Source: a virus. From it: a stretch of 33,470 nucleotides of DNA. The translations under genes were made by a program, and so were the position numbers. Positions 12,696 through 26,396 of this stretch are shown here, piece by piece. The stretch covers positions 1-33,470 of the IMG/VR virus record IMGVR_UViG_3300034093_001970. One strand, 5' to 3'. Under the pieces are notes generated by a model. That model was not told the DNA's origin. It was given only the letters and a program-made list of their open reading frames with translations, and made no database searches. Position 1 is the stretch's first letter. Each line of letters starts with the position of its first letter.

Positions 12696-13061
12696 TTATT
12701 TAACTGGAAAAACTTTGGATGTTTCCTTATCTATCACTAAAACTGTTTCTTGCTTAAAACTTTCTTTTATGTCCTTTGCAAATGATATTGCAATAGTAAT
12801 GTCTTTGGTAATGACCGTAATGGATTTAATCCTCTCTTCGTGAATTATATTTTCATCAGATTTATATAAACCACTAATCGATTTATTGAAGTTTAATCCA
12901 CTAATATTATAATACTGGGATATTATATTTTTTAATTTTTTATTATTATATATAATATTCCTTAATGTTTCAATTTTCATTAAAACAAAATTCCATAAAG
13001 GATATCTATGAAGTTTTATAGAATTAACCTTTATGGAATATAATATTTCGAATGACTTCAT
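12696..13061 (-). CDS. Small unknown protein (121 aa)
   Basis: Lys/Ile/Asn-rich basic protein of 121 residues starting MKSFEILYSIKV. The C-terminal half has alternating hydrophobic strands (SITVITKDITIAISF) and ends VIDKETSKVFPVK. It lies 4 bases after the lipoprotein gene and 24 bases before the 270-aa gene, so it is probably in one transcript with them. No signal peptide, membrane segment or motif gives a function. The clean frame and tight spacing are the main support. Confidence 0.6.
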   Translation of the reverse strand: MKSFEILYSIKVNSIKLHRYPLWNFVLMKIETLRNIIYNNKKLKNIISQYYNISGLNFNKSISGLYKSDENIIHEERIKSITVITKDITIAISFAKDIKESFKQETVLVIDKETSKVFPVK

Positions 13062-21456: not shown

Positions 21457-21487
21457 CAAATATAGTAATTTATTTTAAATAAACAAT
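21457..21487 (-). promoter_or_regulatory. Host-type promoter of nrdB
   Basis: On the minus strand, ATTG (21484-21487) is followed 19 bases later by TATATTTG (21457-21464), close to the Bacteroidota TTTG-N19-21-TAnnTTTG consensus. It ends 16 bases before the nrdB start and overlaps the stop of the upstream nuclease gene. Confidence 0.55.
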
Positions 21488-22256
21488 TATAAAATATCTT
21501 TTAAGAACTCTAAAATTTTATTAGTATTCAAATTCTTATCTTCTGCCCATATAGTTAAAACTTTAAAACCATTATCTATTGCTATTTTCTTTTTATATTC
21601 GTCAAATAGGAATACTTCGTCAGCAGTTTTATTATGGTATAATTGTCGCCATTCCATCCACTCAATATTATTTAATTTTTCTTTATTTGGGTGGAATTTT
21701 TCCCCATTATATTCAATAATATGTTTTTTATCTTCATGGAAGATGGTTAAATCATAAAAATAATATTTTTCATTAAAATATATAAACCATTCATTTTTTC
21801 TATTATTAATATCTCCATAATAAATTATTTTTATATTTTTATTATTTAATAATTCTATTATAGGTTTAAATAATGTAAGTGATTCTTTTGTTATTCCGTA
21901 CATAGAAGTTTTCATTTTCCAATATTTTAAATAATTTTCACCATATAATAAGCGGAAATACTCTTCACTATTTCTATCTTTTTTATTTAATAGAATGTAA
22001 TTGAGGTAGGTATTATACCTATTTTCATCAAAAAATGAATAATTTATTCTAAAATAGAGTATGGTGCCTAATTTTGAATTAGGGTTATTTCTAATTTTAT
22101 TTAAGAAAATTATTTTTAATTCATTTGTAAGTTCATTTGGTAAATTAAACCATAATTCTAATTCTTTATCTTTATCATCGATTTGTAAAACTATATTCTT
22201 ATTAGTATAAATAAGAAGCTTAGGTCTAGTATTAAATTTTTATTATTTATTATCAT
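21487..22256 (-). CDS. Homing-endonuclease-like PD-(D/E)xK nuclease, frame broken near start
   Basis: The C-terminal 142 codons (ATG at 21915) encode a Vsr/PD-(D/E)xK-like nuclease domain: FYDLTIFHED, IIEYNGEKFHPN, then DEYKKKIAIDNGFKVLTIWAED, as in free-standing homing endonucleases of phages and giant viruses. But the same frame stays open upstream to 22239 with no ATG, GTG or TTG, and the residues there continue the family pattern (EEYFRLLYGENYLKYWKMKT spans 21915). An ATG at 22254-22256, overlapping the nrdA stop as ATGA, is one frame off; one extra A in the A5 run at 22237-22241 would join it to the long frame, giving 256 residues. So the gene is either a recent frameshift mutant, a recoded gene, or affected by a sequencing error. 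Position between nrdA and nrdB matches mobE of T4. Confidence 0.75.
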
Positions 22257-24770: not shown

Positions 24771-26189
24771 TTATATTTCTTTTTCTTTATTTTCGTTTAC
24801 TTTATTTACTGCTTGTCTTGTTCTTAATGCTAAATTAACTCTATTTTGCTCATCTTCTTTTTTCTTATTCATCATTCCACCGAAATTTAAACCACTATTT
24901 GATTTTAATTCGATATGCATTGTTGCATTATTAAATATTGAATCAGGAAATGTTATACCATCTTTACCAAATCTTGATTTAAGAATTGCAATACTAGCAG
25001 TACCTTCATCTCTTTGGTCTAATTTCTTAGCGATAGACATAATAAAGTGTCCAATTTGAGCTTTTTTGAATGAACCACCCATTTGATTAGCTTCTACTAT
25101 ATCAGATGTAACTGCACTACGATTAGCTTGTGTACAAACCCATCCAGCAACATCTATTTCACTAATTAATGATTCAAATTCCCTCATTGTTTGACCTTCT
25201 GATGTTGATATATCATCTGAATGTCTTGTCGATTGAACGCAATCAATATAATCTAATAAAATCATATCAGGTTTAATACCTGAAACTGTTAATTTTCTTA
25301 GATATTGTTTTATCATTGGTATTGTGGTGGTACCACTTGGGAATCTTTTCATTATTAATTTACCACCAGTATGTTCTTCTGTTAATGTTACTTTAGCTGC
25401 TTTTACCTCTTCTTTTCTTGAGGATAAATCATTTAATGCAATACCAGTATGGCAAGCTAAATGTTTTCTTTGGATAATTTTGATAGTATCTTCAAAGAAG
25501 ATTTGTACCACAACTTTACCTTCTTTATATGCAGCTTGAGCAAGTTTTGTAACTAGGGTCGTCTTACCAACCCCAGTCGCAGCAAGGATTACAGCGAGTT
25601 CACCCTTAGATAAACCACCATCCATACACTCATCTAAACCATCAATTCCAGTTGAAATTGGTTTTCTAAAGTCATCTTCTAATACACTATCAATAGAATC
25701 TAATAAATGAACACCATTATCTTTATTTCCCCCTAATTCAAGTGCCTTTCTGATTAACTCTTCACATTTAGGGAACTCTTCGATATTACCTCTATCAATA
25801 ATTTTTTTGATATCAGTAATAGTCTTAGACATTTCTTGTTGTTTACAGAACAACATAGCAGTTTCCTGGGTATATTCTGAATCATTTAAGGTAATAGCTC
25901 TAATATCAGTAATAAGGGCTAAGACCTCTTCTCTATCCTTTTCATTTTCTGTAATTACATGATTTAAAAGTCTATTTTGGAGTGTTTCATAATCCAAAAT
26001 AACTTCATCTTTAAATGCATTTACAATTTCAGCTACTAATAAAGATAAATGAATATTACCTTTAAAGTATCCAGGAGATAGTATAGGTAAAATTGATTCT
26101 GCAAATCGTTTATCGGAGATTATTTCTGCGATAATTCTTTTCTGGAATTCTGTACCGTAATGTTCAAATGTTGTTTTGTCTCTTGCCAT
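24771..26189 (-). CDS. dnaB: Replicative DNA helicase, DnaB/T4 gp41-like
   Basis: A 472-residue hexameric 5'-3' helicase of the RecA-fold family, driving the phage replication fork. The N-terminal helical domain (about 1-150) is followed by the ATPase domain: Walker A ATGVGKTT at 204-211, FFEDT in the H1a region, Walker B MILLDYID with D313, TQANRS as the H3/H4 sensor, and ILKSRFGKDG carrying the arginine finger. A Lys/Glu/Asn-rich tail ends the protein. A 209-base non-coding leader with strong secondary structure precedes it; nrdA follows after 1 base, so helicase and reductase are co-transcribed. Confidence 0.93.
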   Translation of the reverse strand: MARDKTTFEHYGTEFQKRIIAEIISDKRFAESILPILSPGYFKGNIHLSLLVAEIVNAFKDEVILDYETLQNRLLNHVITENEKDREEVLALITDIRAITLNDSEYTQETAMLFCKQQEMSKTITDIKKIIDRGNIEEFPKCEELIRKALELGGNKDNGVHLLDSIDSVLEDDFRKPISTGIDGLDECMDGGLSKGELAVILAATGVGKTTLVTKLAQAAYKEGKVVVQIFFEDTIKIIQRKHLACHTGIALNDLSSRKEEVKAAKVTLTEEHTGGKLIMKRFPSGTTTIPMIKQYLRKLTVSGIKPDMILLDYIDCVQSTRHSDDISTSEGQTMREFESLISEIDVAGWVCTQANRSAVTSDIVEANQMGGSFKKAQIGHFIMSIAKKLDQRDEGTASIAILKSRFGKDGITFPDSIFNNATMHIELKSNSGLNFGGMMNKKKEDEQNRVNLALRTRQAVNKVNENKEKEI

Positions 26190-26219
26190 GTAACTTTTAA
26201 ATTCTAGTGTTTATGTGAA

Positions 26220-26355
26220 CTACCTTAAACCTAATGGTTTGAGGCTTTCCAACCTTCGTTGGAAACTTTAGATGTTTCGTAGCTTGTGCACACAGCCAAT
26301 TAAGGGTAGGTGTCTTATTTCAGCTCCACATCTGTAATCGTATGTCCCGTACGAT
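26220..26355 (-). ncRNA. Putative pseudoknotted structured RNA ahead of the helicase gene
   Basis: Non-coding 209-base gap (26190-26398), clearly richer in G+C than its surroundings. Visible pairings: hairpin 26246-26253 with 26258-26265 (8 perfect pairs, 4-base loop); hairpin 26227-26231 with 26236-26240; hairpin 26337-26342 with 26350-26355; closing stem CTACCTT (26220-26226) with AAGGGTAG (26302-26309, one bulged G); GGCT 26243-26246 with AGCC 26294-26297 (sharing one base with the 8-pair hairpin). AGATGT (26270-26275) inside the closing stem can pair with ACATCT (26328-26333) outside it, a pseudoknot, extended by AGCT 26281-26284 with 26322-26325. The strand is assigned from the surrounding operon; a plus-strand RNA or a DNA-level origin structure is possible. 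No known RNA class was recognised. Confidence 0.6.
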
Positions 26356-26387
26356 ATTATTATTAAAAATATTCTAACTTATCTTTA

Positions 26388-26396
26388 TATAAATAT
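26388..26396 (-). promoter_or_regulatory. Recurrent ATATTTATA element before the structured RNA
   Basis: The minus strand reads ATATTTATA just past the stop of the 163-aa gene and 33 bases before the first hairpin of the structured element. This placement suits a promoter for the RNA and helicase transcript, but no experiment is implied. Confidence 0.35.

Follow-up and report, generated by a model that had tools for sequence, protein, structure and literature searches.

The question raised by this locus is what occupies the non-coding gap in front of the replicative helicase gene of a T4-like phage, known from a viral sequence of 33,470 nucleotides (IMG/VR record IMGVR_UViG_3300034093_001970), the whole of which is hereafter called the window. 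Both genes bordering the gap lie on the minus strand, the upstream one at 26890-26399 and the gene of a gp41-like helicase with a DnaB_C domain at 26189-24771. A preliminary description of the sequence had pointed to positions 26220-26355 as a structured, pseudoknot-capable non-coding RNA standing out from its surroundings, and this view was borne out, all of the segments that it named being present where it placed them. It had also seen no resemblance to a tRNA; indeed, ARAGORN finds neither a tRNA nor a tmRNA, and a tRNA-like cloverleaf was thus discarded. In Rfam, riboswitches and ribozymes included, there is no match at the gathering thresholds and no meaningful one up to E 10. The stretch has no homologue by blastn among phage and plasmid records, and searching viral contigs for short exact segments of it gave only the phage itself or chance matches.

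The setting was compared with that in viral contigs fetched through the relatedness of their helicase. L002/L020 represent the same phage as the window (duplicate contig), and L003 is a sister phage with 89-92% DNA identity to the window on both sides of the gap. The alignment of L003 with the window ends at 26214 and restarts at 26384; read along the minus strand, L003 carries GGAATATTTAT-ATAAACACTAGAATTTGAAAG as a contiguous sequence, and the window carries GGAATATTTAT-[174 bp]-ATAAACACTAGAATTTAAAAG. About 12 distinct relatives further removed, in which the gene order is the same, also lack the element and have only a short gap there. Since it is missing from the same gap in L003 and in all of the more distant relatives read, 26215-26388 is an insertion, 174 bp long, that splits a site intact in L003. 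The true unit is larger than the span singled out at first, which misses both of its ends.

The insert is flanked by a 5-bp direct repeat, TTTAT, with one copy at 26210-26214 and the second at 26384-26388 (plus strand). On the minus strand, TTTAT at 26389-26393 stands on the 5′ side of the element and, being a family motif in the literature, represents the target pentanucleotide and the expected TAM. Elements of the IS200/IS605 family make no target-site duplication, and the repeat around the insert may have arisen by chance within the palindromic site TTTATATAAA. A MITE of a DDE transposon with a 5-bp duplication was rejected because no terminal inverted repeats are seen. Immediately beyond the stop of the upstream gene, at 26388-26395 of the window, lies a ATAAATAT motif that resembles a T4 late promoter in the plus-strand reading; it is conserved at the corresponding place in most of the contigs L004-L018, and the element is inserted directly beside it.

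Several features of other genes were recorded on the way. The helicase of L003 bears an intein-like in-frame insertion in its P-loop (GVGKAQPL...VTHNTTLVTK) with LAGLIDADG-type motifs, and a similar insertion is found at this position in the related L019; the helicase of the window is free of it (site 25555-25564). The small gene behind nrdA (21487-21915, minus strand) looks by eye like a free-standing endonuclease of the homing/VSR type and has no Pfam match. For another minus-strand gene, at 12696-13061, Pfam gives a weak hit to S-adenosylmethionine lyase that falls short of the curated cut-off (E 2.6e-4); this gene may serve in anti-restriction.

The origin of the insert becomes apparent from its relatives. 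The TnpB nucleases of IS200/IS605 elements, relatives of the ancestors of CRISPR-Cas12, are guided by an RNA termed the omega RNA. A set of eighty tnpB loci was assembled from viral contigs, and many of these loci end in GTAGTTCAC next to the tnpB stop codon. When the 174-nt element was compared with these tnpB 3′ ends by nhmmer, matches were obtained to L180 (E 2.9e-11), L182 (6.5e-5), L172 (2.7e-4), and others, the best alignments beginning in the final codons of tnpB and reaching as far as the element does. A covariance model for which the copy in the window, folded as the minus strand, was the sole source (the other row of its alignment, L002, has the same sequence) matches 20 viral tnpB loci at E below 0.01, in every case on the tnpB sense strand and over the full model length, 1-143. 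The scores reach 84.7 bits for L180 (E 1.3e-16), 50.1 for L181, 47.4 for L177, and 40.1 for L182, while the best unrelated match in 529 kb gives 9.9 bits. In Parabacteroides phage PF672P2 (L159), the tnpB element likewise has the same UAGUUCAC end after its hairpin.

Which strand gives rise to the RNA cannot be read from the folding energy. The plus strand folds better (z −5.19 against dinucleotide-preserving shuffles, none of 200 as good) than the minus strand (z −3.35, one of 200 as good), because G-U pairs form at the positions of minus-strand C-A mismatches and the palindromic target site supplies a closing stem of 14 pairs. According to the covariance model, the RNA is nevertheless encoded by the minus strand, as are the flanking genes. 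A standalone plus-strand non-coding RNA, favoured by folding energy and the G-U pairs, is ruled out by the minus-strand homology to tnpB.

The covariation check proposed in the preliminary description was carried out on the 21 model matches with E below 0.01. Standard pairs are formed in 93.4% of the cells, and pairing-preserving changes on both sides occur in 30 of the 33 pairs; none of 500 shuffles scores as high, and slid versions are only 28-42% paired, so that the margin is large, even though fitting the alignment to the structure makes it lean that way. The crossing helix formed by 26270-26275 and 26328-26333, as described previously, proved to be real and to covary in relatives, and hairpins at 26246-26265, 26223-26244, and 26337-26355 are all supported (covariation helices 4, 5 and 6, and 1, respectively). 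The long-range closing stem proposed between 26220-26226 and 26302-26309 fared differently: it exists by its letters but is not conserved, with 64.9% of the cells pairing versus 62.9% in shuffles.

Read along the minus strand, the element begins with a residual left end of only ~10 nt, downwards from 26388. In IS200/IS605 elements, subterminal hairpins recognised by TnpA are found at both ends; here, no clear palindrome is seen at the left end, and the right-end hairpin is present. There follows, at 26268-26378, the decayed 3′ end of a tnpB reading frame (VRIFLIIISYGTYDYRCGAEIRHLPLIGCVHKLRNI up to its stop), which aligns to the tnpB 3′ end of L180, comprises the last ~36 codons, and overlaps the omega RNA. 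The latter starts with the 5′ hairpin AUCGUACGGGACAUACGAU at 26337-26355 (helix 1), where 99% of the cells are paired and both sides change in 6 of 7 pairs. Stem 1 (helix 2, within 26270-26333) is made by AGAUGU (26333-26328) and ACAUCU (26275-26270), which are replaced by AGAAGU/ACUUUU in L180 and by AGGAAU/GUUUCU in L182; it encloses an inner stem, 26325-26322 with 26284-26281 (helix 3). The next hairpin, UUUCCAAC-GAAG-GUUGGAAA at 26246-26265 (helix 4), is present in only part of the relatives, and its pairing is kept with unrelated sequence in L180, L182, and L183, both sides having changed in all 8 pairs. The terminal, right-end hairpin CCUCAAACC-AUUA-GGUUUAAGG at 26223-26244 (helices 5 and 6) occupies the position of stem 4 in ISDra2 and ends 8 nt before the element boundary, i.e., within the ~10 nt taken as a criterion (PMC10278001). 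The omega RNA is closed by the tail UAGUUCAC (26215-26222), which is identical in 15 of the 20 tnpB relatives and ends exactly at the insertion boundary, the expected start of the guide.

Two C/A mismatches interrupt the helices, one in the 5′ hairpin (the same in L180) and one in stem 4, and they could be signs of decay. The true pseudoknot is probably formed on the minus strand by 26215-26219 (UUCAC) with GUGGA at 26325-26329: 86.5% of the cells pair, compared with 31-49% in slid versions, and the two strands are invariant and thus lack covariation. An earlier guess at the partner, GAA at 26319-26321, was abandoned since it is not conserved in relatives and GUGGA fits better.

The same arrangement is known from the solved ISDra2 omega RNA, in which G-6 U-5 U-4 C-3 A-2 precedes the guide, the stem-4 hairpin has its tetraloop at -20 to -17, and U-5 to C-3 form a pseudoknot with an upstream strand near -105 (PMC10097598). 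In the window, counting back from 26215, the same G-6 U-5 U-4 C-3 A-2 recurs, the tetraloop of stem 4 falls at -21 to -18, and the strand that may serve as the pseudoknot partner lies at -115 to -111. Among the T-rich pentanucleotides that precede IS605-type insertions, TTTAT is reported for group A IStrons (PMC4227781) and for the solo tnpB elements of Sulfolobus islandicus (PMC10640517). The window element thus resembles TnpB omega RNAs and right ends (ISDra2 and the phage loci L180, L177, and OP172820.1) in its set of hairpins with stem 4, in a candidate guide-proximal UUC pseudoknot, in the boundary tail UAGUUCAC, in the T-rich pentanucleotide on the opposite side, and in a predicted flank-derived guide. 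It differs from them by having no tnpB in cis, only the last, decayed codons, and by the extra hairpin 26246-26265, which only part of the family has.

Other systems are similar in part. The archaeal palindrome-associated transposable elements (PATEs), which are degenerate IS605-type elements, are likewise too short for a transposase, lack terminal inverted repeats, and have an IS605-type origin, and one of them, HqIRS71, also retains a C-terminal coding region (PMC3119063). Unlike PATEs, the element described here resides in a phage, is bordered by a 5-bp direct repeat, shows no evident left palindrome, and has a guide RNA scaffold that looks intact. The phage-encoded guide RNA of TldR shares with it phage carriage and TnpB ancestry, but there a gene for the TldR protein is present (PMC13418256), and none is found here. 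HEARO, the omega RNA of IscB (RF02033), is also an insertion-borne guide RNA with a pseudoknot; its guide, however, lies at the opposite end.

Taken together, the insertion, the homology, the conserved fold, the end motif, the TTTAT flank, and the match of the guide to an empty site identify the 174-bp feature as an ORF-less, non-autonomous copy of an IS200/IS605-family tnpB element in a T4-like phage, with very little room for doubt. The predicted 16-nt guide, AUAAACACUAGAAUUU, is flanking phage DNA directly 3′ of the element (26199-26214, minus strand), and all 16 positions match the empty site of L003, where the identical sequence adjoins TTTAT. With the site occupied, as in the window, the guide match has GTTCAC in front of it instead of TTTAT, the insert having parted the two, and the phage's own genome would therefore be spared.

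Neither the window nor the duplicate contig nor the sister contigs yielded an intact tnpB; all are fragments, and the sister contigs included no positive control for the search. With the tnpB gene gone and only its 3′ tip left, the element is non-autonomous: either a relic or a mini-element needing TnpB from elsewhere. It is known that TnpB processes its own mRNA into the omega RNA (PMC10278001), and that TnpB of IS200/605 elements, together with a recorded site, constitutes a gene drive against element-free plasmids (PMC11870625). The element would be transcribed by read-through, as part of a minus-strand message that covers the upstream gene (26890-26399) and continues into the helicase gene, and a compatible TnpB acting in trans, encoded by the host, by a co-infecting phage, or elsewhere in the phage's own genome, would trim this transcript to the omega RNA. 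The guide AUAAACACUAGAAUUU might then direct cutting of the unoccupied allele, TTTAT followed by ATAAACACTAGAATTT, in sister phages, and such cutting of empty alleles would favour copying of the element into them. The whole reading, an ORF-less omega-RNA element whose guide is possibly used by TnpB in trans, is assigned a probability of roughly 0.85.

Copies of a similar kind exist elsewhere. Applied to 37 whole viral records, the covariance model finds multiple copies in three of them: six in G029, ten in G036, and three in G017. As judged by tblastn upstream of the copies, about 10 of them have no more than a short tnpB remnant and lie beside intact or near-intact tnpB genes in the same records. 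Four ORF-less copies in G029 share 293-375 bp at 86-92% identity and, by this likeness, behave as a mobile family; in G017, L264 has only the last 137 bp in common with full copies and is a right-end-only copy much like that of the window. As to the structure of the ORF-less copies in G029 (L251, L263, L266, and L269), they have an upstream segment in common, and two also have an 86-aa frame (MEIDLKQI..KRPFSGVARK...) that extends into the omega RNA with an end like the TnpB C-terminus. The 243-kb record G036 (IMGVR_UViG_3300042560_001323) contains its ten omega RNA matches as L255, L265, L268, L270, L272, and L274-L278, about half of them without tnpB, and appears to be a heavily invaded phage genome.

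The most serious alternative shares the identity proposed above and denies any present function: an IS605/tnpB element was inserted, its core was deleted, and the inactive right end is decaying, its fold persisting only through the recency of the loss. Only the last tnpB codons remain, the left end is nearly gone, two helices contain C/A mismatches, and core deletions in IS605-type elements are documented in Haloquadratum (PMC3119063), all of which fit this account. On the other hand, all scaffold helices and the guide-adjacent tail are intact, and the recurrence of ORF-less copies, multiple in G029 and G036, suggests mobility. The odds of a pure relic can be put at about even, and those of an element still used by TnpB in trans rather than decaying at somewhat lower; judged from sequence, function in trans is plausible and a decaying relic about equally likely.

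Much less can be said for a riboswitch-like or autoregulatory leader of the helicase/nrdA operon, which the preliminary description had envisaged. The element is indeed structured and occupies the gap in front of the helicase gene, but its absence from the sister phage, with an empty site in L003, and from the relatives with the same gene order, the lack of an Rfam match, and the homology to the 3′ ends of tnpB, i.e., to transposon ends, make such a role very improbable. A plus-strand omega RNA of the IscB/HEARO type, taking its guide from the left flank and using ATAAA for a target motif, would agree with the better plus-strand fold, the GTGA at the start of the insert, and the ATAAA in the right flank; it is contradicted by the homology of the minus strand to the tnpB sense strand and by the HEARO model, which finds no match at E<=10, and hardly deserves credence. 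Equally negligible is a DNA structure forming part of a replication origin, also suggested before, for the sequence is palindromic and adjoins replication genes, but neither the sister phage nor the other relatives have it in this gap, and the empty site contradicts such a role.

With the feature read as an ORF-less omega-RNA element, an unexplained phage RNA structure turns into a guide RNA with a stated, if predicted, target. Omega RNAs lacking a tnpB can occur in phage contigs, in several copies per genome and often beside an intact tnpB, and the occupied allele of the window and the empty allele of L003 form a natural pair for testing guides in trans. A more far-reaching suggestion, which must be regarded as doubtful, is that orphan phage omega RNAs are maintained as trans-acting guides, so that TnpB would cut element-free sister alleles at co-infection and a 174-bp non-coding element would home like a mobile intron. 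If orphan guides do act in trans, they would provide for the nuclease-driven spread of small non-coding inserts or for the exclusion of sister phages.
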